Below are positions 4,337-16,008 of a stretch of 42,378 nt of DNA, piece by piece. The stretch is taken from positions 1 to 42,378 of the forward strand of contig JAKLKA010000054.1 in the NCBI GenBank assembly GCA_023150915.1, given 5' to 3'. This DNA is from Polyangiaceae bacterium. Its GTDB lineage: Bacteria; Myxococcota_A; Polyangia; Polyangiales; Polyangiaceae. The notes below the pieces were generated by a model. It was not told the DNA's origin. It ran no database searches and was given only the letters and a program-made list of their open reading frames with translations. Both the position numbers and the translations under genes were made by a program. How positions within the stretch are numbered: position 1 is the stretch's first letter; every line of letters begins with the position of its first letter.

Positions 4337-5566
4337 CTACACGAGGCCCTGGCCAGCGCAAAGGCGTGCGTGGACCGCGTCCAGGCGGCGCTCGACGGCG
4401 CGCGGGCTCATCACGCCTTTGTATACGTACAGAGCGCTCGCAGTCTTCTCGTCCAAGATCTCTTCGCTGACTCGCAGCCGGCTCGAGACCGCGAACACCA
4501 CCGGCTCGGGCAGCCCCCCGGTCGCCAGCTCGGCCCGCCGGAACGCGGCCTCGCGGCTCCAGAACCCCAGCACCTCGAGGTGCACGTCGCGCCCGCTCTT
4601 CTGGTGGGTGAAGGTCAGATCGGGCACGCACACGCCCAGGCCCGGCACGTCCAAGATCCGCGCGGCGGGCGTGACCTTCCACGAGGTCTCGAGCTCCGAG
4701 AACGCCTGAAGCAGGGCGCTCACGTCGTCGTTCATCGCCGGGCCGGCGGCGTCGCCGGCGCCGCGGGTCTCGTAGCGGAAGGTGAGCCGCTCGCGCCGGC
4801 GTCCCCAGCGCAGGTCCGCCGCGAGCCGCAGCTCGTCCGCCGCCTCGAGCGCGGGCAGCACCAGCGCCAGGCTGAGCCCATACTTGGTCACCGAGTCGAA
4901 CAGGCTGTGGGGCCCGTCGATCACGATCCGATAGCCGCGCTCGGTGCGCTCGATGCGGTGCAGCAGGCGCCGGAACTTCAGCTTGCCGAACAGCGCGCGA
5001 TAGGCACCGGGCGAGCGGCAGACCACGTCGGCGGTGACGCGCGTGGCCTTGAGCAAGATGGCCTGGCGCGCGCTCCGCTCGTACTCGTCGGCCAGCGCCT
5101 CGGGGGGGATCTCGGGCACGCGGACCACCCGGGCCTCGCTCGGCAAGTCCGAGTAAAGCGCCTCGTCCACGGCCTGGGGCTCGAGCCCGAAGGCGGCGCC
5201 GACCGCCCCGAGCACGGCCTGCTTGTCCAGGGGCACGCCGTCGGCCAGCGTGCGACGCTCGTTCGCCGCCCGCTCGAACACGGCGCGCCGCAGCGCTGCC
5301 ACGTCCACCGCCTGGGGCGACTCGATCTCGCACCGGTCGAGCAGCAGCTTGCCCAGGCCCTCGACCATGCGGCGCTCGCTGGGGCGACACTCGATGGCGG
5401 CAAGGGCTTCCTCCAGCGCGCGGCGCCGCGCCCCCTGGCACTCGCGACCGGCCAGGATCACCTCCGTGGCCAGCGCCACCGCGGCCGCCCGCCGCTTCTT
5501 GTCGAAGGCCGGCAAGATCAGCTCGTCGCCCTTGCGCCGCACGCGCACGTGGTCGGAGCTCAGCAT
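4337..5566 (-). CDS. Bax1-like DUF790 nuclease, partner of XPB
   Basis: 409 residues, starting at an ATG whose A is also the last base of the XPB stop codon (TGATG), so translation is probably coupled. Sequence style and context match DUF790/Bax1: an N-terminal MLSSDHVRVRRKGDELILP, a central GPHSLFDSVTKYGLSLA segment, and a C-terminal nuclease-like region with VCVPDLTF and VHLEVLGFWS, resembling the D...E-x-hydrophobic pattern of PD-(D/E)xK enzymes. In archaea Bax1 binds XPB and cuts bubble DNA in a nucleotide-excision-repair-like reaction. The same role here is inference from the pair. The frame continues open upstream through XPB, but that is only a shadow. Confidence 0.9.
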   Translation of the reverse strand: MLSSDHVRVRRKGDELILPAFDKKRRAAAVALATEVILAGRECQGARRRALEEALAAIECRPSERRMVEGLGKLLLDRCEIESPQAVDVAALRRAVFERAANERRTLADGVPLDKQAVLGAVGAAFGLEPQAVDEALYSDLPSEARVVRVPEIPPEALADEYERSARQAILLKATRVTADVVCRSPGAYRALFGKLKFRRLLHRIERTERGYRIVIDGPHSLFDSVTKYGLSLALVLPALEAADELRLAADLRWGRRRERLTFRYETRGAGDAAGPAMNDDVSALLQAFSELETSWKVTPAARILDVPGLGVCVPDLTFTHQKSGRDVHLEVLGFWSREAAFRRAELATGGLPEPVVFAVSSRLRVSEEILDEKTASALYVYKGVMSPRAVERRLDAVHARLCAGQGLV

Positions 5567-6927
5567 CAGCGATAGGCCTCGTGATCGCGCCGGCGCTCGC
5601 TGGTATGGGTCTCGGCCGTGCCGCCGCTGACCAGCTCGTAGAGCGTGGCCTGCTTGCCCTCGCGTTTCCGCAAGATCCGCCCCAGCCGCTGCACGTGCTC
5701 GCGCACCGAGCCCGAACCGCTGATCACGATGGCCACGTTGGCATCGGGCACGTCCACGCCCTCGTTCAACACCTTGCTGGTCGCCACCGCGCCGTAGGTA
5801 CCGTCGGCGAAGCGCTGCAAGATCTCGCTCCGCTCGCGCACCTTGGTCTGGTGGGTGATGACAGGCACCAGGCAGCGCCGCGAGACGGCATAGGCGGTGG
5901 CGTTGTCTTGAGTGAACACCAGCGCGCGGTCGGCGCGGTGCTGCTCGAGCAGGTGCTCGACCAGCTCGAGCTTGGCGGCCGAAGCAAAGGCGATCTCGCG
6001 CTGACGCCGGTAGGCGCGCATCGCGCGGCGGCCGTCGGTGCGCTGCGCTGCCCGCATCACGAACTCGCTCCAGCCCTGGGGGCCGTTCATGCGAACGCCA
6101 TTGGCACGCAAGAAGCCCAGATAGGTGGCGCGCTCGGCCTCGTATTCCGCGCGCTCGTCGGCGGTCAGCTCCACGGCCAGCCGCACGGTCTCGTACTCGG
6201 CCAGGAAGCTGCCGGCGATCTCGCCGATCTCGACCCGGCACACGATCGGCCCGATCAGCTCGTCCAGGCTGGCTTCTCGGCCGTCGGTGCGCTCGGGCGT
6301 CGCGGTCAGGCCCAGGCGATACGGCGCCAGGCACTGCTCGGCCGCCAGCTGATAGGTCGCCCCCGGCAGGTGGTGACACTCGTCGAAGATCACCAGCCCG
6401 AAGCGCGCGCCGAAGTGCTCCATGTGCAGGTGCGCGCTGTCGTAGGTGGTGACGGTGAGCGGCAGCACCTGGTGCTCGCCGCCGCCCACGATGCCGACCT
6501 CGGTGCCGAAGCTGGTTCGCAAGAGGTCGTACCACTGGCGGACCAGATCGAGGGTCGGCGCCACCACCAGCGCACTGCGCTGCCGGTCGGCGATCGCCAA
6601 GATGGCCACGTGACTCTTGCCGGCCCCGGTGGGCAAGACCACCACCCCGCGCCCCTGGGCCTTGCGCCAGGCCACCAGCGCCCGCTCCTGGAAGGGACGC
6701 GGTTCGCGCCGCACGCGCAGCCCGTGGGTCAGCGCCTCATAGCGGCGCGCCTGGTCCTCGAACGGGACCTGGTCGCGGCCCAGCCCGAGCACGATCGGCG
6801 CATACGCGCTGGCGGGGGCTCGGTGGCAGGCGGCGCGCGCGTCCCAGCGCACGCCCGGCGGCAGCGGCAGCTCGGCGGGCCAGCCGTGGAGCTCGAGCGT
6901 GCCGTAAGAGAAGCGCAGGCTGAGCAT
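5566..6927 (-). CDS. XPB/Rad25-family DNA repair helicase
   Basis: 453 residues, an SF2 helicase. Motif I LPTGAGKS is at 98-105, the DECH box at 182-185, then LGLTATPER and the C-terminal motif VI QRLGRILRKR. An N-terminal damage-recognition-like segment (LRFSYGTLELHGWP) and a central basic/aromatic insertion (AYRRQREIAFASAAKLELV) are as in archaeal and bacterial XPB. The RED motif of XPB is changed to R-T-D just after TATPE. The C-terminus ends HTSERRRDHEAYR, typical of the family. The start overlaps the upstream lipoprotein stop as TGATG, and the stop overlaps the Bax1 start in the same way. XPB unwinds or torques DNA and would feed Bax1 its substrate. Confidence 0.93.
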   Translation of the reverse strand: MLSLRFSYGTLELHGWPAELPLPPGVRWDARAACHRAPASAYAPIVLGLGRDQVPFEDQARRYEALTHGLRVRREPRPFQERALVAWRKAQGRGVVVLPTGAGKSHVAILAIADRQRSALVVAPTLDLVRQWYDLLRTSFGTEVGIVGGGEHQVLPLTVTTYDSAHLHMEHFGARFGLVIFDECHHLPGATYQLAAEQCLAPYRLGLTATPERTDGREASLDELIGPIVCRVEIGEIAGSFLAEYETVRLAVELTADERAEYEAERATYLGFLRANGVRMNGPQGWSEFVMRAAQRTDGRRAMRAYRRQREIAFASAAKLELVEHLLEQHRADRALVFTQDNATAYAVSRRCLVPVITHQTKVRERSEILQRFADGTYGAVATSKVLNEGVDVPDANVAIVISGSGSVREHVQRLGRILRKREGKQATLYELVSGGTAETHTSERRRDHEAYR

Positions 6928-7850
6928 CACGGGCCCCAGAAGTCGCCGAACAGTGCGCCGCCATGGACCACGATCTCGGGGCACGAGACGTTTCCGTTGT
7001 CGTCCACGTCTTGAGCGTCGCCCACCCTCACGGCGCGGAACGGGCTGCCCGGCTCGACCACGATGTTGATCTGAGCCGCCGTGGTCAGGCAGTCGTCCGA
7101 GAAGCCGATCACCGACTGGTCCAGATCGACCTCGGCCTTGCCCTCGATGCGATCGGGGGTGATGACCTTGCCCTTCAGCGTGACCCCGGTTCGGAGCGCC
7201 ACGAAGAGCTTCTCGAGCTTGCCTTCTCCGCAGGTGACCACGCTGGCCAAGAGGGTCACCCCCGGGCTGCCGTCCTGATCCTCGTCGAAGGCAGTGCCAG
7301 GCGCTTCCTTGGTGGGCAGCGGATCCTCGACCGGATCCGACAGCTGGGCCCCGACCACCAAGAGCGAGGGCGGCGGCAGATAGGCCGCGCCGATCAGCTC
7401 CTGGCTCGAGAGCAGGTCCCCCTCCGCCTCGACGTGCTTCTGCGCCATCAGCGCCTGGAGCGCCGGCGGAATGATCAGCGTGGCGAGCCCTTCGACCTTC
7501 GGCAGCTTGAACGCGCACAGCGTGGTCTTCTGCTGGATCTTCCGGCCGCGCTGCACCAGCCGCAGACGGAACAGCTGCCGCGTCTCGACCGGGATCCCCA
7601 CCTTGGCGTTGATCGTGGTCTCGACGGCGAAGATGCCGCTGAGCGGGCCCTGGCCGGCGGTGTCCCACGGTTCCAGCGGATCGGGGGGAATGACCACCGG
7701 GCCCGAGTCCACGCTGGTCGAGGCGTCGGTGCAGCCGCCGACCGGGCAGTGGTCGTGGCGCAGCACCGGCACGTCGTCCTTCGGGCCGCAGCTGGGCGCC
7801 AGGGCAGCGAGCGCCCCGAGCGTGATGCAGACCGCCAGGGCTCGGCTCAA
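6927..7850 (-). CDS. Lipoprotein of unknown function, TTG start
   Basis: 307 residues. The start is a TTG with GGAGG 7 bases upstream, overlapping the TGA of the FadL-like gene as TTGA. The signal peptide has a good lipobox (LAPSC, Cys about residue 22). The mature protein carries CPVGGCTDAS, then a predicted beta-rich domain with TTINAKVGIPVETRQLF, LATLIIPPALQALMAQ and a DEDQDGSPG turn, which could bind Ca2+. No family recognised. Its placement between a barrel gene and XPB, with overlapping stops and starts, says it belongs to this operon. A role as periplasmic or outer-membrane partner of the barrels is inferred only. Confidence 0.85.
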   Translation of the reverse strand: MSRALAVCITLGALAALAPSCGPKDDVPVLRHDHCPVGGCTDASTSVDSGPVVIPPDPLEPWDTAGQGPLSGIFAVETTINAKVGIPVETRQLFRLRLVQRGRKIQQKTTLCAFKLPKVEGLATLIIPPALQALMAQKHVEAEGDLLSSQELIGAAYLPPPSLLVVGAQLSDPVEDPLPTKEAPGTAFDEDQDGSPGVTLLASVVTCGEGKLEKLFVALRTGVTLKGKVITPDRIEGKAEVDLDQSVIGFSDDCLTTAAQINIVVEPGSPFRAVRVGDAQDVDDNGNVSCPEIVVHGGALFGDFWGP

Positions 7851-9151
7851 AAGCGTGCCTCCACTCCCAGCGAGATCGCGAGCAGCCGGCCGCCGTACAC
7901 GTAGGAAGGGTAGCCCGGGTTGTCGGCCAGCGCCGCGTCGCTCTCGAAGCGGCGATAGTCCTTGGTCTCGCTGCGCTCGACCAAGAGCACGTGCTCGACG
8001 GCCAGGTTCAGCTTCGCGTCGAAGCCCGGCGTGAGCCAGCCCTCGAGCGCGCTCTCGAGCCCCATCGACAGGGCGTGGCGATCGGTGTCGAGCAGGTTCG
8101 ACGGGCCGCCGTAGTTGCCGAGCGGCGATTTCTGGAAGCGGTATCCGCCGAGCACGCCGAGGGCGCGGTGCGCCGCCCACCGGGCGCCCACCGCGGGCGT
8201 CCAGGTGTCGCCCCAGACCGGCGAGAACTGCGCGTTGTGGTTGGTCGAGAGCGCCCGCGACCAGCGAGAGAAGGTCAGATCGGCCGACACGTCCAGGGTG
8301 GGCGTCAGATCGGCCGACACCGCGGCGGTGACCTGCGTGGGCTCGAAATAGTGGGCAAAGCGGTGGGTGTAGCCCATGTGCCGAAGGATTGGCACGTCCG
8401 TGATGCGGGTGTCGCCCCAGTCGTCGACGTAGCTCTCGTGGCGATACGTGAGCCCGAGCCGCAGATCGTCCCGCGGGGTCACCAGCACGCCGGCCAGCGG
8501 CGCAACGCGACCGAACACCCGCGCGTCCGTCCCCAGCACGGTGTGCGTGCGGACCTTTCCGGTCTCGGGGTCGTACGCCACGTCGGTCACCCGACCGCGC
8601 GTCAGCGTCTCGACGTCGAACATCACGCGCAACCCCGCGCCCACCGACAGCCACGGCGCCAGGCGAAGCCCGACCGACGCATTCGCCGTGACCACCTGCG
8701 TGCGGTCGGTGAGCAGTGCCCACTGCACGTCGTCGTCGGGGCGGATCGACCAGCGAAACAGGTGCTCGGGCACGTACACCGACAGGCCCATGTTCAGCCC
8801 GTCGAGATCGAACGGCTGCCCCAGGCTGAAGCGCGAGCCCACCAGCACCCCGGTGGTGGTCGGCTCGCCCGGGGTCTCGAGCTCCGAGCCGTCGGACCGC
8901 GTCACATACAGCCGGGGCGCGGCGAACAGGTGTGCCGCCGACAGCTCGAAGAAGCCGCCGTGCTCACCCTGCGACCCGCCCCGGGCCAGGCCCGCCGGGT
9001 TGTAATAGGCGGCGGCGAAATCCCCGGGACGCGCGGCGTACGAGCCCCCCAGCGCCATGGCCCGCGGCCCGAGCCCGAAGGTGTCTTCCACCCCGGCATG
9101 CGCGGGCGCGCTCGCAAGCACCACCAGCGAAAGGCACGCCAGGCGCCTCAT
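7847..9151 (-). CDS. FadL/OmpP1-like outer-membrane beta-barrel protein (second of pair)
   Basis: 434 residues with signal peptide (VVLASAPAHA). Right after it comes the FadL-type hatch signature: GPRAMALGGSYAARPGDF then AAYYNPAGLA. The rest alternates amphipathic strands and turns, and the protein ends with a strand closing in Phe (LAISLGVEARF), as expected for Bam-dependent insertion. FadL-family channels take up hydrophobic compounds through the outer membrane; the substrate cannot be read. It overlaps its upstream barrel paralogue by 4 bases (ATGA) and the downstream lipoprotein by TTGA. Length is close to FadL (about 420-450). Confidence 0.88.
   Translation of the reverse strand: MRRLACLSLVVLASAPAHAGVEDTFGLGPRAMALGGSYAARPGDFAAAYYNPAGLARGGSQGEHGGFFELSAAHLFAAPRLYVTRSDGSELETPGEPTTTGVLVGSRFSLGQPFDLDGLNMGLSVYVPEHLFRWSIRPDDDVQWALLTDRTQVVTANASVGLRLAPWLSVGAGLRVMFDVETLTRGRVTDVAYDPETGKVRTHTVLGTDARVFGRVAPLAGVLVTPRDDLRLGLTYRHESYVDDWGDTRITDVPILRHMGYTHRFAHYFEPTQVTAAVSADLTPTLDVSADLTFSRWSRALSTNHNAQFSPVWGDTWTPAVGARWAAHRALGVLGGYRFQKSPLGNYGGPSNLLDTDRHALSMGLESALEGWLTPGFDAKLNLAVEHVLLVERSETKDYRRFESDAALADNPGYPSYVYGGRLLAISLGVEARF
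7858..7862 (-). promoter_or_regulatory. Shine-Dalgarno deciding the TTG start at 7850
   Basis: GGAGG on the minus strand, 7 bases before TTG. It justifies an unusual start codon that overlaps the preceding stop. Confidence 0.7.
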
Positions 9152-10443
9152 CGGGGCCTCTCGCGTCCGACGTACAGCGTCAGGCTGAGCCCGGCCTGCC
9201 AGAAGAACGCCGACGACCGGAAGCCGGGATGTCCGAGGTTGTCGATCTGCTTCTCCGGCAGCTCGGGCGTGGCGTCGCTGAGCCGATTCGGATCCTTGTC
9301 GACCTGCTGGCTGCCGCCGAAGCGCACGCGGGTGAAGACGTCCACCCCGATCGGGACGCGCCGCCAGAGCTTGCGCAGATCGGAGCCGGCGCCCAGCGCC
9401 AGCATGTGGGTGTCGGCGCCGAGGTAGTTCTCGTCGCCCACCTGCTCGGGCACGGGGGTGGGCTCGAAGGCATAGCCGCCACGCACGGTCAGCCAGGGCC
9501 GCAGCAAGTGGGCCACGCCGACGCGCGGATTGAGCGTGTCTTCGAAGGGCACGTCGAGCGAACGGTTCAGCCCGCTGCGAAACGAGCTCCAGCGGGCGTA
9601 GCCCAGATCGGCAGTGAGGGTCGTTCCGGAGAAGCTGCCGGCCGAGACCCCGAGCACCACCTCGCTCGGATCCCAGAACTGGTGATAGTCGATGGGGTCG
9701 TCGGCCAAGATGCCGCCCGCCACCGTCCGCTGGCCACCGCCGGCCCGGCTGATCGACGCGGCTCGAGCCACGAGCCCGATCCCGAGCTCGGGCAGCGGCT
9801 GAGCACGAATCCCGGCAAACGGCGAGACGTCCATCTCGAGATCGCGGTCCAGCCGCACCACCACGTCTCGCTCCACGCCGTCGGCGCGCTCGGCCACGTA
9901 GGTGACCTCGGTGGGCGTGGCCAGGGTCGGCGCCATCACCACGCCCGCGCCGATGCGCAGCGCCGGCACCACCTCGTAGGCCAGCGCGCCCAGCGCGCTC
10001 ATCCGATCCGGTCGACCGTCGTAGATGGGGCTCTGGGGCTGGTCGGTCCGCGCGTCGACGCTGACCCGCAGCACGTGCTCGGCCGGCAGGTAGAGTGCCA
10101 GCCCCACGCGCAGCCGCCGCAGCCAGTCCGGCCCCGGCAGGGGCGTCGCCGCCGCGAGCCCATAGCCACCGAGCCAACGCTGCCGCGGCGCATCGGCCTC
10201 GCCGTGACGCGTGAAATCGATGGCCACGTGGCCCACGCTGGCGCCCAGCATCACCTGCGGCTCGGTCACGTCGGCCAGCCCGGCAGGGTTCTCGCGGATC
10301 GAGCCGGCGTCACCAGGTGCGCCGACCACGGCGTTGCCCTGCGCGGCCACCCGCGCGCTCTCGCCGAAGGCGGTGCCACTCGTGGCACTGGCGACGCGCG
10401 GCACCGCCGCGAGCACCAGCCCGAACCACGCCGTTCGCCGCAT
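9148..10443 (-). CDS. FadL/OmpP1-like outer-membrane beta-barrel protein (first of pair)
   Basis: 431 residues with signal peptide ending around RVASA. The FadL-like N-terminal signature is present in divergent form: SARVAAQGNAVVGAPGDAGS then IRENPAGLAD. A barrel-like alternation follows, with segments such as VGLALYLPAEHVLRVSV. It also has PEVTYVAERADG-like and GGYAFEPTPVPEQ segments shared in style with the adjacent barrel, so the two look like an old tandem duplication. The last residues (SLTLYVGRERPR) lack a terminal aromatic, unlike its neighbour. Start and stop overlap neighbours (TGATG and ATGA), indicating one operon. Confidence 0.86.
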   Translation of the reverse strand: MRRTAWFGLVLAAVPRVASATSGTAFGESARVAAQGNAVVGAPGDAGSIRENPAGLADVTEPQVMLGASVGHVAIDFTRHGEADAPRQRWLGGYGLAAATPLPGPDWLRRLRVGLALYLPAEHVLRVSVDARTDQPQSPIYDGRPDRMSALGALAYEVVPALRIGAGVVMAPTLATPTEVTYVAERADGVERDVVVRLDRDLEMDVSPFAGIRAQPLPELGIGLVARAASISRAGGGQRTVAGGILADDPIDYHQFWDPSEVVLGVSAGSFSGTTLTADLGYARWSSFRSGLNRSLDVPFEDTLNPRVGVAHLLRPWLTVRGGYAFEPTPVPEQVGDENYLGADTHMLALGAGSDLRKLWRRVPIGVDVFTRVRFGGSQQVDKDPNRLSDATPELPEKQIDNLGHPGFRSSAFFWQAGLSLTLYVGRERPR

Positions 10444-10928
10444 CACAGCCCCGCCGGACCGATCGACAGGCAGTCGTCGGTGGTGTCTTCGACGGGCGCC
10501 GGCAGCGGGCACTGGCCCGCCTCGTCCAGCGGCGTCACCGAGATGGACTTCAAGGCCTGAGCCACGCCGCCGGCCGCGTTCTCGACCACCAGCGTGACGT
10601 GCAGCGGGCGATCGGCGGCCATGCTGACCAACACGTCGGGCTGATCGGCCGTGCCGTCCTCGTCGAACAGCCAGTCCGAGCCGGCGAACGACCAGCGGAT
10701 CTTCAGCGGCGGCTCGTCGGGATCGGGCGGCGCCTCGACCAGCGTCAGCCGGGGCGCGCTGCGGGTCGCGTCCAGGTGGATGCTGGTGGCGAAGTCGTCG
10801 CCTTCGCACAGGCTCCACGGGCAGGCGCGGATCACCGCCGACGGCGCCGGAGGCGGCGGCTCACTGCAGCCGACGAGGCAGAGCGCCGAGAGACACGCGC
10901 TGACGGTCGACCAGCCCCAAGCACTCAC
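10443..10928 (-). CDS. Small lipoprotein with PKD-like domain, head of barrel/XPB block
   Basis: 161 residues. Signal peptide with canonical lipobox LVGC (Cys at about residue 21), then a Pro-rich linker (SEPPPPAPS). The remainder resembles an Ig/PKD fold: LDATRSAPRLTLVEAPPD, LKIRWSFAGSDWLFDEDG and LHVTLVVENAAGGVAQA are typical of PKD repeats in surface proteins. It is the first of a tightly overlapping set (TGATG to the next gene) leading through two barrels and a lipoprotein into XPB and Bax1. There are 43 bases between it and the selenoprotein gene upstream, so the operon may extend further. Confidence 0.85.
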   Translation of the reverse strand: MSAWGWSTVSACLSALCLVGCSEPPPPAPSAVIRACPWSLCEGDDFATSIHLDATRSAPRLTLVEAPPDPDEPPLKIRWSFAGSDWLFDEDGTADQPDVLVSMAADRPLHVTLVVENAAGGVAQALKSISVTPLDEAGQCPLPAPVEDTTDDCLSIGPAGL

Positions 10929-10971
10929 GGCAGCGATGAATGCCCGGAATTTCAGCGCGGCACAAGTCGGG

Positions 10972-11700
10972 TCACTTCCCGAGCAGGGTCATCAGCTGAG
11001 TCAGGCCCTCTTCCACGCTCGACGGCTTGCTGCCGTCGTAGCTGCCGAAGCCCTTCCACACCACCTTCATGGTCTTCAGATCGATGACGTAGGTCCACTC
11101 GCGACTCACCAGCTGATCCAGCGTCTGGTCGTCTTTGGGTTTGACCACGGACACGTGCAAGTCTTCGGCCTTGATCCACGAGAGCAGATCGCCCGAGTGC
11201 AGGATCTCGACCACCAGGCCGCCGGCCGCGATGGCTGCCTTGCCCTTCTGCTGACTCCCGCCCAAGACCTGGGCGGCCTTCTTGCAGCCGGGTCAACCCT
11301 GTAAGGCTATGTGGATCAGGCCGTACGACTTGCCGCTCTTGCGCATGTCGTTGCTCGAGTAATCGATGTACGGCAGCGTGTCCGACGACGCGGCCGCGTC
11401 CAGGTTCACGTAGCCTTCCCACGCCAGGTTGGCGAGGGTGTCCCCCACCGCGTTGCCGTAGGGGCCGGCTGGGTACGGACCGAAATCCACCGGGCCATCC
11501 GAGCCCGCATCGATCGCGCCGCCGGCACCGCCGGTGGCCGCACCGCCGGCTGCCGTGCCGCCCGCGCTGGTGCCGCCAGTCTGCGCGATGCCGCCGCTCC
11601 CGCCCGCTGCCCCGCCCGAGCTGTCGTCCGAGCCGCAGGCCGCGAGCCCGACAGCAAGCATCAGGGTGAGCGAGACGCCGCGCAAAGTCCGAGCGGTCAT
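10972..11700 (-). CDS. Predicted selenoprotein: thioredoxin-like lipoprotein with U-P-G-C motif
   Basis: Read through one in-frame TGA at 11293-11295, this is a 242-residue protein. The ATG at 11700 overlaps the preceding stop (ATGA). Residues 1-22 are a lipoprotein signal (VGLAAC), 23-70 a Gly/Ala/Ser linker, and then PYGNAVGDTLANLAWEGYV, the lead-in of redoxin/TlpA-like proteins. The first core strand SYGLIHIA is followed by LQG-Sec136-PGC139-KKAA, exactly where thioredoxin-fold proteins carry C-x-x-C. After the TGA the fold continues (GGLVVEIL, EDLHVSVV, WTYVIDLKTMKVVWKGFG). A SECIS-like hairpin lies 17-35 bases downstream. Seen: the TGA, frame continuity, hairpin. Inferred: Sec insertion and thiol/selenol redox activity outside the inner membrane. 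Alternative: a nonsense mutation. Confidence 0.85.
11258..11276 (-). promoter_or_regulatory. Predicted bacterial SECIS element for Sec136
   Basis: On the minus strand, CCGCCC pairs perfectly with GGGCGG around the loop AGGUCUU. An extra A-U pair would leave GGUCU. The loop starts 23 bases after the UGA, with G at its second position, inside the known range for bacterial SECIS (loop about 16-37 bases from UGA). The E. coli fdhF SECIS has a nearly identical AGGUCU loop, which is contacted by SelB. The hairpin lies inside the coding region, as bacterial SECIS elements do. Confidence 0.85.
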
Positions 11701-12599
11701 GGCTTCTTTCGCACTCCGATCCAGGTCAAATAGCGAGTCCCCTCGCCGGCGTTCATCTCGATGCGTAGCCCGTCGGGGCTGACTTGGCCAGTGGCCACCA
11801 CGCCGAACGTTGCCGGGGCCACCCAATCCGAGAACAGGTAGCTGCCGAGGGCCAGCCACTCGACCGGGGTGCCGGGAGCGAGCCCCAGCACGTCGGCCGA
11901 GCTGATCCGCGCGAGCGCGCTGGCCCCGCCGGCCTCGAGGATGATGGCCGCCTCGAACGGACCAAGGGCCCAGAGCGCGAGCAGCCCGAGGGCGGGTGGC
12001 GCGAAGCGGGCTTGGAGGGCCGCCGGGATCGGCGTCACCCGGAACTGCTTGCCCGCGTTGCCGAGCGCGACGTCTTCCACGTCCAGCTTGATCTGGGTGC
12101 CGGCGGTGAGCTCGAGCGTCAGACCGCCGCTGGTCACGGTCTGGGCGGGCGCCCCCTGCTTGTCCGACCAGACCACCAGCTCGGGCCCGCTCGGCGGCAG
12201 CGCCAAGAGCGTGAGCTCGCCCATGTCCACGCTGGGCGCCGGGCTCTCGGGCAGTGGGAAATAGAAGCTGGTGTGGCTCGGGCGACCGTGGGTCAGGACC
12301 GAGAACTGGCTGGGCACGATGCGCTCGCCAATGCTCACGCTGAATGCGCCCGTGGCGTCGGACTCACCGAACCAGCACACGCTGCCGCACACGCTGGTCG
12401 AGAGCTTGGCCAGCGCCTGACCCGAGGCATCGACGGTGCGGCCGGTGACCTGCTGCACGCACACCGAGCCCGGCCCCGCGTCGTTGCTGCACGCCGCGCT
12501 GCCGCCGGCCGCGCCGCCGGCGCCCGCCGCGTCCCCCGCCGCGCCACCGTCACAGCCCAGGGCCAGAAGGCACAGCCCAAGAAGCGCGCGGCCCAGCAT
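11697..12599 (-). CDS. Lipoprotein with carboxypeptidase-regulatory-like domain
   Basis: 300 residues. Signal peptide with lipobox LALGC (Cys16), then an Ala/Gly linker and a Cys-containing segment. GRTVDASGQALAKLSTSVC followed by GESDATGAFSVSIGE resembles the beta-sandwich CarboxypepD_reg/Cna-B-type fold (a new property, then D-x-x-G-x-F). C-terminal beta-rich sequence includes FEAAIILEAGG and YLTWIGVRKKP. It lies directly upstream of the selenoprotein with an ATGA overlap, so the two are almost certainly co-translated. This suggests, but does not show, that it is a partner or scaffold of the selenoprotein. Confidence 0.85.
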   Translation of the reverse strand: MLGRALLGLCLLALGCDGGAAGDAAGAGGAAGGSAACSNDAGPGSVCVQQVTGRTVDASGQALAKLSTSVCGSVCWFGESDATGAFSVSIGERIVPSQFSVLTHGRPSHTSFYFPLPESPAPSVDMGELTLLALPPSGPELVVWSDKQGAPAQTVTSGGLTLELTAGTQIKLDVEDVALGNAGKQFRVTPIPAALQARFAPPALGLLALWALGPFEAAIILEAGGASALARISSADVLGLAPGTPVEWLALGSYLFSDWVAPATFGVVATGQVSPDGLRIEMNAGEGTRYLTWIGVRKKP

Positions 12600-12644
12600 G
12601 CAGGTCAGAGCCTAGGGCCCAGCCACGCAATCGGCAACCCGCCC

Positions 12645-13310
12645 TCAGCGGAACAAGACGCCGGTGTCCGCCGACGTGACCTGGCCCATCATCTCGACCG
12701 GCAGGTGGAAGACCAGCTCACCCATGAACGTTCCGCGCCGTTCGCGCAGCTTCACCTGGGTCACGCTGCAGTTGCCCATGCGCACGATGCACACCCGCGG
12801 CACCGGCGCGCAGATCAGCTTCTTCAAGATCTGGAAGTTCACCCCGCCGTGGGCCACCACCAGCACCCGCGGCGCGCTGGCGCGGAAGGCGCCGATCCAG
12901 CGATCGAGCAGGGCCGACACCCGGGCCTGCACCTGGTCGTAGCTCTCGCCGCCGAACTGAGAGAAGTCGCCGAGCTCGGTCACACCGCGCTGCATCCACT
13001 CCGGGTGCTTCTCGGCCATGTCGTCCCGGGTCAGGCCTTCCAGGGCGCCGGCGCGGATCTCTGCCAGATCGGGCTCGACGGACGCCGCCGGCTGACCGGT
13101 GTCGGCAGACAGGATCTCGGCCGTCTCGCGCGCGCGCCTGAGCGGCGAGCTGAACGCGAAGTCCCAGCTGGTGCCGGTGCTCTTCAGCCAGGCGGCCAGC
13201 TGCCGTGCCTGGGCGCGGCCCCGCTCCGAAAGCGGATAGTCGAGCCAGCCTTGCAGACGCCCCTCGGCGTTGGCCTCGCTCTCGCCGTGGCGAACGATCA
13301 GCAAGTCCAT
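12645..13310 (-). CDS. Histidine phosphatase (phosphoglycerate mutase-like) family protein
   Basis: 221 residues. The catalytic RHGES is at 7-11 (phospho-His8), with a second arginine region SSPLRRARETAEIL, the acidic EIRAGALEGLT and the second catalytic His in VVAHGGVNF. All four features of the branch are intact. The C-terminal segment, about 40 residues after VRMGNCSV, is longer than in minimal members. Substrates of this family range from sugar phosphates to cobalamin precursors, and nothing in the sequence picks one. It starts 6 bases after the gene at 13317 ends and precedes the lipoprotein at 11697-12599 by 45 bases. Confidence 0.92.
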   Translation of the reverse strand: MDLLIVRHGESEANAEGRLQGWLDYPLSERGRAQARQLAAWLKSTGTSWDFAFSSPLRRARETAEILSADTGQPAASVEPDLAEIRAGALEGLTRDDMAEKHPEWMQRGVTELGDFSQFGGESYDQVQARVSALLDRWIGAFRASAPRVLVVAHGGVNFQILKKLICAPVPRVCIVRMGNCSVTQVKLRERRGTFMGELVFHLPVEMMGQVTSADTGVLFR

Positions 13311-13316
13311 CGAGGG

Positions 13317-13820
13317 TCAGCAGGCCCCGGCCGAAGGCGTCGCGCTGCAGTCCGGCATCTTCGGGCTGGGCGCGGTGCCGCAGCTCAGCACATACTCGTG
13401 ATCCCCACCGTTGCAGCTGAACTTGGTGACCACGCCGCCGGCCTTGAGTGTGGCGAAGTCCGCGGCGGTGAGCGTCACCTGGTGACAGTGCTGGCTCGAG
13501 CCGGTGGCGTCGTAGGTCTTCTCGACCCCGGCATCGATGTCGGCCTGCGGCACCGTGAGCGCATGGCCATGGTTGTTCGAGATCTCGGCGACCGCGCCGG
13601 CCGAGCAGGTGGTGCCGCCGCCGCCGCTGCCGCCGCCCCCGGACACACCGCCGGTGCCACCGCCGCCGCCGCCCGGCGTGCCACCGCCGCCCGACGTGCC
13701 GCCGCCGCCCGACGAACCGCCGCCGCCCGACGAGCCGCCACCGTCGTCGTCGCCGCCGCAGCCCCAGAGCGCCACGAGCCCCACCACGCTCGCCAAGAAC
13801 TCGGTGCGTGTGAGCTTCAT
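13317..13820 (-). CDS. Small Gly-rich lipoprotein with His/Cys-rich C-terminal domain
   Basis: 167 residues. Start ATG at 13820 gives MKLTRTEFLASVVGLVALWGCGG, a lipoprotein signal (LWGC). A run of acidic residues and about 50 residues of Gly/Ser/Thr/Pro linker follow. The C-terminal domain has NNHGHALTVPQADIDAG, QHCHQVTLTAADFATL and GGDHEYVLSC: paired HGH, HCH and DHE motifs with spaced Cys. That pattern could bind a metal or resemble a cupredoxin-like beta-sandwich, but I recognise no named family. The longer upstream reading in this frame lacks a signal peptide and is rejected. Confidence 0.82.
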   Translation of the reverse strand: MKLTRTEFLASVVGLVALWGCGGDDDGGGSSGGGGSSGGGGTSGGGGTPGGGGGGTGGVSGGGGSGGGGTTCSAGAVAEISNNHGHALTVPQADIDAGVEKTYDATGSSQHCHQVTLTAADFATLKAGGVVTKFSCNGGDHEYVLSCGTAPSPKMPDCSATPSAGAC

Positions 13821-13851
13821 CGCGCCGAACTCTAGCACGCGCGTGCGCGGC

Positions 13852-14625
13852 TCAGCGAGCGCGCGGCTCGAGCTCGGGATCGGCCTCGGGGGCGGTCGCC
13901 GTCGCGGTGCACAGGTAGCCGCGCCCCTTGGCGACACACCGAACGTCCACGACATCGGATGCACCGAGCCGCCCCGCCGCGGCCATCAGGCCCAGGCGCG
14001 CGCCGTCTTTGGTGCACCCTTCTTTGCAGCGGGTGACCAGATCGCCCAGCCGCAGGTTCGCCCCCGGCATGTGCGGCACCTCGCGCACCCGATCCGCGCG
14101 ACGCGGAGGCCTCAGGGCCACGCCCTGGGCCGGCGAGAAGTGCACCCGGATGTGCCAGGCCTCGTCCGCTCGCGGCGCGTCGTCGTCCGCCATCACCCCC
14201 GAGACGAGTGGGCGCCGCACCAGGGCTTCGCCCGTGGGCCGAGCGACCTCGGCGTCGCACGAGATGTCCAGCTCGGTCGAGGTGTCGCCCTCGGAAGCAA
14301 TGCGCGAGCGGCAGCGCCGGCCCACCAGCACCTCGGCGCCCACCTCGGCGGCACGCTCGCGCAGCGCCGCCATCAGCCGGCTCTCGGTGCAGTCGACGTC
14401 GATCAACCGCGCGCCGTCGTCGGGCCGGGCGCCTTCGACCAGGGTGCAGCGCGCGCGCAGCCGCCCGATGCGCTCGTAGCCCTCGGGCAGCGTCTCGACC
14501 TCGCTGAGCTCGCCCGGCCGGACCATGCGGGGCTCGGCATGCCCTTCGAACAAGACCCCAGTGGTGGCACACCCCGGAAGACCAGCGACCAGGGCAGTGA
14601 CGACGGCGAAGCGAACGGCGCGCAT
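13852..14625 (-). CDS. Lipoprotein of unknown function, two related Cys-rich modules
   Basis: 257 residues. Signal peptide with lipobox LPGC (Cys19). The mature region contains PEGYERIGRLRARCTL and ARLIDVDCTESRLMAALRERAAEVGAEVLVGRRC. Later comes GARLGLMAAAGRLGASDVVDVRCVAKGRGYLC. The two pieces look like a repeated A-x(5)-GA-x-x-V-x-x-RC module. These resemble the YbjQ/DUF4156-like periplasmic folds in which a helix is followed by a Cys-ended strand, but I do not assign a family firmly. Lies between dinB (45 bases upstream) and the small lipoprotein (31 bases downstream), all on the minus strand. Confidence 0.8.
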   Translation of the reverse strand: MRAVRFAVVTALVAGLPGCATTGVLFEGHAEPRMVRPGELSEVETLPEGYERIGRLRARCTLVEGARPDDGARLIDVDCTESRLMAALRERAAEVGAEVLVGRRCRSRIASEGDTSTELDISCDAEVARPTGEALVRRPLVSGVMADDDAPRADEAWHIRVHFSPAQGVALRPPRRADRVREVPHMPGANLRLGDLVTRCKEGCTKDGARLGLMAAAGRLGASDVVDVRCVAKGRGYLCTATATAPEADPELEPRAR

Positions 14626-14670
14626 TTCGGCGCGAGCATAGCGATATTTTCCGGCGGATGCGAAGCCTGC

Positions 14671-15912
14671 TCACTCCCCGCGCTTCTTGCGCATCCCCGG
14701 CGTGATCTTGCCCGGATCGTCCACCGCCCGGTGGATCGCCCCGCGGCCGAACCGCTCGTGAATCGCGTCCAGCGCGGGCCCCAGCCGATCCGGCGGCCGC
14801 CGCGGCGCGAACAGCTCCAGCTGCTCGCGATCGCGCGATTCCATCCCCGACAGCGAGACCCCCAGCAGGCGCACGGGCTCGGTCAGCCCCAGCTGATCCC
14901 ACAGCTCGAGCACCGTGCGGCGGATCAGCGCGCCGTCGTCGGTCGGCTCGCGCAGGGTCTTCTGCCGGGTGAGCAGCGGGTAGATGGGCTCGGCGTCTTC
15001 GCCGGCCAGGCGCGGCTCGCGCTGCCCGCGCCGCGTGGCCAGCTTGACCTTGAGCGTCACCACCCGGCCGCGAAAGCCGTCGTGCCGCACGCGCCGAGCA
15101 ACCGTTTCGGAGTGCGCGGTGAGCGCCGCGCTGATCTGCTCCCGGTCGATCACGTCGCGCTCGAAGGTGCTCTCTTCGCCGTAGCTCTTGGGGTCGCGAT
15201 CGCTGACCACCGGCCGGGGATCGTCGCCGCGGGCCAGCGCCAAGAGCTCGTGCGCCCGCTCGCCCAGCTCACGCTCCAGGGTGCGCGGGTCGAAGGCCCT
15301 GAGCTCGGCGATGGTGCGGATGCCGAAGCGCGCCAGCTTGTCCCCCAGCACCGGCCCCACGCCCCAGATCCGGCGCACCGGCAGCGGGTCGAGCATCCAC
15401 CGCACCGCCTCGCGGGGCACGAGCAAGAGGCCGTCGGGCTTGCCCAGCGTGCAGGCGATCTTTGCCACCTGCTTGGTCGGCCCGACCCCCACGCTGATGG
15501 TGAGCGCCGTCTCTTCGCGCACGCGGCGCTTCAGCCGACGGGCCAGTGCCAGCGGGCCACCGAACAGGCCCACCGAGCCGGTGATGTCCAGGAACGCCTC
15601 GTCCAGAGCCACGGGCTCGATCTCGGGCGTGAGCTCGGCGAAGACCGCGTGGACCTGGGCGCTCACCCGCGCGTACTTCTCCATGTCGCTCTGCACGAAC
15701 GCCGCCTCGGGGCACAGCTCGCGCGCGCGAAACCCGGGCATGGCAGAGCGCACACCGAAGGCCCGGGCCTCGTACGACGCCGCCGCGACCACGCCGCGGG
15801 CGCTGGTGGCCCCCACGATCACCGGGCGGCCGCGGAGCTCGGGGTGGTCCCGCTGCTCGATGGACGCGTAGAAGGCGTCCATGTCGGCATGCAAGATCCA
15901 GCGCTCGGACAC
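14671..15912 (-). CDS. dinB: DNA polymerase IV (Y-family translesion polymerase)
   Basis: 413 residues from the GTG at 15912; a TTG at 15951 would add 13 residues. The first metal-binding segment LHADMDAFYASIEQRD and the second VALDEAFLDIT are intact, and AASYEARAFGVRSAMP is the family finger motif. KIACTLGKPDGL and the helix-hairpin-helix RRIWGVGPVLGDKLARFGI follow, then the little-finger region. It ends QLELFAPRRPPDRLGPALD and a basic tail (GMRKKRGE), which may be degenerate for beta-clamp contact. Pol IV copies past damaged or mismatched ends at low fidelity. It is divergent from the gene at 16009; no LexA box is evident in the 96-base gap. Confidence 0.95.
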   Translation of the reverse strand: MSERWILHADMDAFYASIEQRDHPELRGRPVIVGATSARGVVAAASYEARAFGVRSAMPGFRARELCPEAAFVQSDMEKYARVSAQVHAVFAELTPEIEPVALDEAFLDITGSVGLFGGPLALARRLKRRVREETALTISVGVGPTKQVAKIACTLGKPDGLLLVPREAVRWMLDPLPVRRIWGVGPVLGDKLARFGIRTIAELRAFDPRTLERELGERAHELLALARGDDPRPVVSDRDPKSYGEESTFERDVIDREQISAALTAHSETVARRVRHDGFRGRVVTLKVKLATRRGQREPRLAGEDAEPIYPLLTRQKTLREPTDDGALIRRTVLELWDQLGLTEPVRLLGVSLSGMESRDREQLELFAPRRPPDRLGPALDAIHERFGRGAIHRAVDDPGKITPGMRKKRGE

Positions 15913-16008
15913 GACGCGCCGGAAGGTACCGGGCCCCGAGGCCGCGGACAATCGCGATGCCAGCCGCGCGGGACCTGCCTATGCTGTGACCTCCGGAGCG
16001 TGCACCTC

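Follow-up and report, generated by a model that had tools for sequence, protein, structure and literature searches.

A predicted lipid-anchored redoxin with an in-frame selenocysteine codon, and its co-encoded cysteine-rich lipoprotein, in a Polyangiaceae bacterium

Here, we describe a gene interrupted by an in-frame UGA, together with its upstream neighbour, in a window of 42,378 nucleotides (the whole stretch of DNA analysed) from a Polyangiaceae bacterium (GenBank assembly GCA_023150915.1, contig JAKLKA010000054.1, positions 1 to 42,378 of the forward strand). The following features were located in it by computational analysis.

10972..11700, minus strand: very probable selenoprotein gene, encoding a predicted lipoprotein of 242 aa with a thioredoxin/redoxin-like domain, Sec136 and the motif U-P-G-C (from homologue comparison and translation)
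11635..11700, minus strand: predicted signal peptide of a lipoprotein, its lipobox being LAAC (Cys22), and then a linker rich in Gly, Ala and Ser (by eye from the translation)
10975..11481, minus strand: conserved redoxin-like domain, from a YPxGPYG motif to the C terminus (from the family alignment, weak AhpC-TSA matches and ResA as best PDB match)
11293..11295, minus strand: very probable Sec-encoding UGA (TGA or a Cys codon in the same homologue column)
11258..11276, minus strand: SECIS hairpin of six G-C pairs and an A-U pair, with loop AGGUCUU at a spacing of 22 nt from the UGA (from fit to the bSECIS model and covariation of the helix in homologues)
11697..12599, minus strand: operon partner, a predicted lipoprotein of 300 aa with an HGRP motif and, apart from the lipobox Cys, four conserved Cys, of which the last two form C-G-x-x-C

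The selenoprotein frame runs on the minus strand from an ATG at 11700 to a stop TGA at 10974-10972, and its sole interruption is the TGA at 11295-11293, so that two open pieces share one frame, as a preliminary description of this DNA had stated. Translated with Sec at that codon, the product has 242 residues and the motif U136-P-G-C139; Sec136 lies three residues before Cys139, and not four as first described. Inspected by eye, the translation opens with a signal peptide and a lipobox Cys (LAAC), and a lipobox ending in Cys is also present at the N-termini of several homologues. We predict that the product is an exported lipoprotein.

Homologues were collected from 97 related genomes (the window genome is G000), giving 22 further loci. 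Exactly one TGA falls inside the match in the window gene and in 18 of the 22, and none in the remaining 4. Read in frame, every TGA-form locus of this set has its internal TGA at the identical active-site column (UPGC, UPAC, UGSC or UGNC), where the non-TGA loci have CPGC, CTSC, CQTC or CANS; CPGC, the form that the preliminary description had named as strong support, stands opposite the TGA in L019, L064 and L073. A profile search of 183 genomes across the order returned 28 TGA and 6 Cys loci among its best 34 matches, and all 27 of the 28 TGA loci that were read in frame have the TGA at the Sec column. Deeper paralogues carry USAC, USSC, UTAC, UGGC, UGIC, UPVC and USLC, and three loci without a clean motif (L077, L082 and L091) were left out of the support for the column. 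In no homologue is TAA or TAG found there: the column holds TGA or a Cys codon only, and the real stop or non-Cys residue once named as grounds for refutation did not appear. All three stop codons, TGA, TAG and TAA, are used freely as the terminal stop, which keeps the same end point. Internal TAA codons in matches from G225 and G415 were considered as UAA-encoded Sec and rejected, since TAA is there the ordinary C-terminal stop.

The hairpin first described at 11258-11276, with six G-C pairs, loop AGGUCUU and a spacing of 22 nt from the UGA, was recovered with an additional A-U pair and with its loop at 11270-11264. The SECIS of E. coli fdhF has the loop AGGUCU(U). Like it, the window hairpin comes directly after the UGA and carries this loop; unlike it, the window hairpin has a spacing of 22 nt, and most homologues have a different loop, of the CGUGAUCU type. 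The energy of the window hairpin is ordinary for GC-rich DNA (z -1.16; 26 of 200 shuffles fold equally well), so folding energy alone was dropped as evidence, being not significant, and comparison among homologues had to decide. The bSECIS model specifies a loop of 3-9 nt with G in the first two positions, a spacing of 16-37 nt, a stem of 4-16 bp and an MFE of at most -7.5 kcal/mol (PMC13188914). All of these limits accommodate the window hairpin (loop AGGUCUU, spacing 22 nt, stem 6-7 bp, 50-nt fold of -20.7 kcal/mol), in keeping with the earlier remark that the spacing fits the bacterial rule. In 14 homologues, a set that omits the window's clade, whose helix register is one base away, 99% of the cells of a seven-pair helix are paired, and three of its pairs have changed on both sides in a compensatory manner. 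None of 500 shuffles was as good, and sliding the pairing partner by one to three bases gave 27-43% pairing. The window's clade keeps seven pairs in its own register, complete in three members. In the register of the 14-homologue set, 114 of 133 cells are paired across all Sec forms versus 14 of 28 in Cys forms; by this count the Cys homologues are without such a helix. Synonymous codons in the hairpin are skewed, with GAT for Asp in 7 of 7 cases (39 of 143 elsewhere in the genes) and CGT for Arg in 10 of 14 (9 of 142 elsewhere), counts drawn from related sequences that are not independent.

SelA, SelB and tRNA-Sec (TCA anticodon) are encoded together on one contig of the window genome. SelD is encoded at L044 (G000:C224:56788-57111), where the gene has its own TGA at the Sec site (GGGUARKL) and an N terminus, MSELRLTRLVQGGG-TGA-ARKLPAEDL, that requires Sec at this TGA; all four of selA, selB, selC and selD, whose absence would have counted against the preliminary description, are thus in the genome. 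Two marks of a bacterial selenoprotein, an in-frame UGA that has Cys or UGA opposite it in homologues and a genome with SelA, SelB, SelD and tRNA-Sec, are found together here. At least three predicted selenoprotein genes are present in the window genome. Another paralogue of Sec type, L086 (G000:C237:60820-61242), lies elsewhere in this genome; it reads HVSGFT-U-SAC-KAAARDMALD and is also kept in G001. In the first homologue set, 13 of the 14 genomes with the TGA form have SelA, compared with 1 of the 4 with a Cys form; where the family is absent, 19 of 79 genomes have it. With the later set included, the counts are 22 of 24 for genomes with the TGA form versus 1 of 6 for those in which the close homologue is of the Cys form only. 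Both TGA-form genomes in which SelA was not detected, G073 and G097, are draft MAGs, and assembly gaps probably explain the missing gene; G073, the one exception of the first set, has a tRNA-Sec above the cut-off despite SelA not being found. No tRNA-Sec exceeded the cut-off in three Cys genomes in which SelA was not found (G035, G047 and G050), and G009 has a Cys form alongside Sec machinery.

Two other readings of the codon were weighed. The TGA could be a true stop or a sequencing error, leaving a truncated lipoprotein and a dead or separate fragment (a pseudogene, or a second protein from TTG 11265), and mechanical ORF calling does split the gene there, as had been expected of standard annotation. 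However, the same TGA occurs in independently assembled genomes across several families, TAA and TAG never occupy the internal codon, and Cys homologues read straight through it. The region downstream of the TGA is conserved at least as well as the region upstream, and against G002 it has dN 0.017 and dS 0.25 over 106 codons (dN/dS about 0.07); by these values it is under strong purifying selection and evolves as protein. A stop or an error is, on this evidence, highly improbable. Even less credible is a reading of the UGA as a residue other than Sec (by a suppressor, or as Trp under code 4), which has the open frame and nothing else in its favour, whereas TGA serves as the ordinary terminator of both the selenoprotein gene and its upstream neighbour, Cys and never Trp occupies the column in non-TGA homologues, and tRNA-Sec, SelA, SelB and SelD are present. 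The UGA at 11295-11293 is very probably a selenocysteine codon and the gene one for a selenoprotein, the interpretation originally put forward and now supported, as strongly as sequences can support it, by the homologue column, the sel genes, the bSECIS fit and helix covariation. Decoding by SelA, SelB, SelC and SelD would be directed by the hairpin 22 nt downstream.

In the family tree, a CPGC clade (G035, G139 and G163, with SelA not found) is nested among Sec forms. The topology calls for several Sec/Cys changes, of which at least two are forced by branches with good support. Outside this class of the phylum, in a different one, L109 in G311 reads UGKC and its close relatives G282 and G373 read CGKC, with SelA in all three, a difference that points to a recent Sec/Cys exchange. 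One Cys homologue, L026 (G047:C438:510-1007), reads C-A-N-S and has lost the resolving Cys; SelA was not found in its genome, G047.

The window protein alone has no Pfam match and only a sub-threshold NCBIfam match. Within the family, AhpC-TSA is matched at E 0.1 or better by 15 of 23 members (best 1.2e-6), the window protein itself not among them, and the top PDB chain for the family profile is ResA (E 0.01). These weak matches suggest a distant relationship of the product to the AhpC/TSA and ResA/TlpA redoxins; no curated family is devoted to it. In the family consensus, YALVHxSxFx(U/C)PGC, the first motif column is invariant and the second Cys is present in at least 90% of the alignment, so that a (U/C)xxC motif follows a hydrophobic core strand, as in redoxins. 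The peroxiredoxin motif PxxxTxxU/C does not describe the selenoprotein, which has UPGC and no T three residues before Sec. Because the U/C-x-x-C follows a hydrophobic strand, a thiol-disulfide oxidoreductase is favoured over a peroxiredoxin, for which TxxU is listed (PMC13188914). The earlier thioredoxin-type assignment has weak support from sequence, in the AhpC-TSA and ResA matches given above; the domain would adopt a thioredoxin fold.

The partner gene lies immediately upstream, its stop overlapping the selenoprotein start (ATGA), and stop and start overlap in many homologous pairs. CarboxypepD_reg is weakly matched by 10 of 22 partner members. In 23 of the best 34 loci (20 Sec, 3 Cys) the gene immediately upstream, in the same orientation, is the partner, as it is in 14 among the more distant Cys pairs. 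In the other 11 of the best 34 loci, among them every UGSC and UGNC member read, no partner was found within 2 kb; for this reason the lipoprotein cannot be the redoxin's sole client. A distant Cys-type redoxin adjoins a partner-lipoprotein homologue in the same genome (G000:C240:47162-48312), which suggests that the pairing arose before the Sec form did. This partner, the second Sec paralogue and the Sec-containing SelD are additions to the preliminary description.

From these elements we infer how the pair might work. An exported lipoprotein would present a thioredoxin-fold redoxin domain with the predicted active site U136-P-G-C139, whose selenolate would attack a substrate at a disulfide or an oxidised thiol and form a mixed selenenyl-sulfide, as in UxxC/CxxC thiol oxidoreductases. 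Cys139 would then release the substrate and leave an Se-S bond, to be re-reduced by a periplasmic thiol donor. The lipoprotein encoded upstream in the same transcript would be the most likely client, and its conserved Cys (the C-G-x-x-C pair and two more) would be reduced or isomerised. Because of the gene pair, the conserved Cys in both proteins and the precedent of TlpA, which reduces ScoI and CoxB (PMC6696091), we put the chance that this lipoprotein is a client of the redoxin at about even. A copper role of the partner is only a possibility, the parallel being one of Cys pattern and not of homology.

The product could instead be a selenoprotein that acts as a peroxidase-like scavenger or a general periplasmic reductase, the upstream lipoprotein being merely a co-regulated neighbour. 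That the best family matches are AhpC-TSA and Redoxin is in line with such a role, as are the 11 of the best 34 loci that lack a nearby partner. The active site, however, is U-x-x-C, of the thiol-disulfide type, and not the T-x-x-U of peroxiredoxin selenoproteins (PMC13188914); moreover, the pair is kept in both Sec and Cys forms, with stop and start overlapping in many, and the partner retains its four Cys beyond the lipobox. We regard a scavenger or general reductase as possible though rather doubtful. Tentatively, and at somewhat less than an even chance, we propose a selenoprotein family that is centred on Myxococcota and lies outside the catalogue published so far, in which a lipid-anchored seleno-redoxin would be dedicated to a co-encoded cysteine-rich lipoprotein (C-G-x-x-C and HGRP), possibly a metal-binding or assembly factor; the two lipoproteins would form a redox module whose Sec and Cys forms replace each other as Sec machinery is retained or lost by genomes.

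A catalogue published in 2026 lists 119 (sub)families of prokaryotic selenoproteins, includes broad UxxC classes in PF00578, PF08534 and cd02966, and mentions neither myxobacteria nor lipoproteins (PMC13188914). The groundwater MAG survey cited in PMC13188914 may contain family members. A literature search for selenoproteins with myxobacterial names returned almost nothing, and nothing relevant. Like the Prx-like thiol:disulfide oxidoreductase and redoxin selenoproteins of PF00578 or PF08534 (Table 1 of PMC13188914), the window protein has a redoxin-type domain and Sec first in UxxC; unlike them, it matches neither Pfam family, and it combines a predicted lipid anchor with a YPxGPYG motif of its own, N-terminal in position, and an operon partner. 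With the ResA, TlpA and CcmG reductases, it shares a predicted extracytoplasmic, anchored thioredoxin fold with a CxxC-type site, and ResA is its best PDB profile match (E 0.01); it differs in having Sec for Cys, the ResA match is too weak for membership, and no cytochrome c or oxidase assembly genes were recognised among the neighbours at 5566-15951. The TlpA-ScoI/CoxB system of Bradyrhizobium (PMC6696091) likewise joins a periplasmic thioredoxin-like reductase to a partner with Cys needing reduction, as the window pair may do, but the window partner weakly matches carboxypeptidase-regulatory-like domains and not Sco. The family is a probable addition to the thioredoxin-fold selenoproteins, as a new subfamily with a partner. 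It adds a well-supported selenoprotein family for myxobacteria, whose genes ORF calling cuts at the TGA, and its conserved partner is a concrete candidate client. Since many members show natural Sec/Cys exchanges, some of them in genomes without detected Sec machinery, the family offers a good system for the value of selenium in a periplasmic thiol oxidoreductase.

The block at 5566-15951 contains pol IV, lipoproteins, a histidine phosphatase, the selenoprotein pair, two FadL/OmpP1-like porins and a helicase. It is syntenic with G001 and G002; G022 and G133 share only the selenoprotein pair in the stretches compared.
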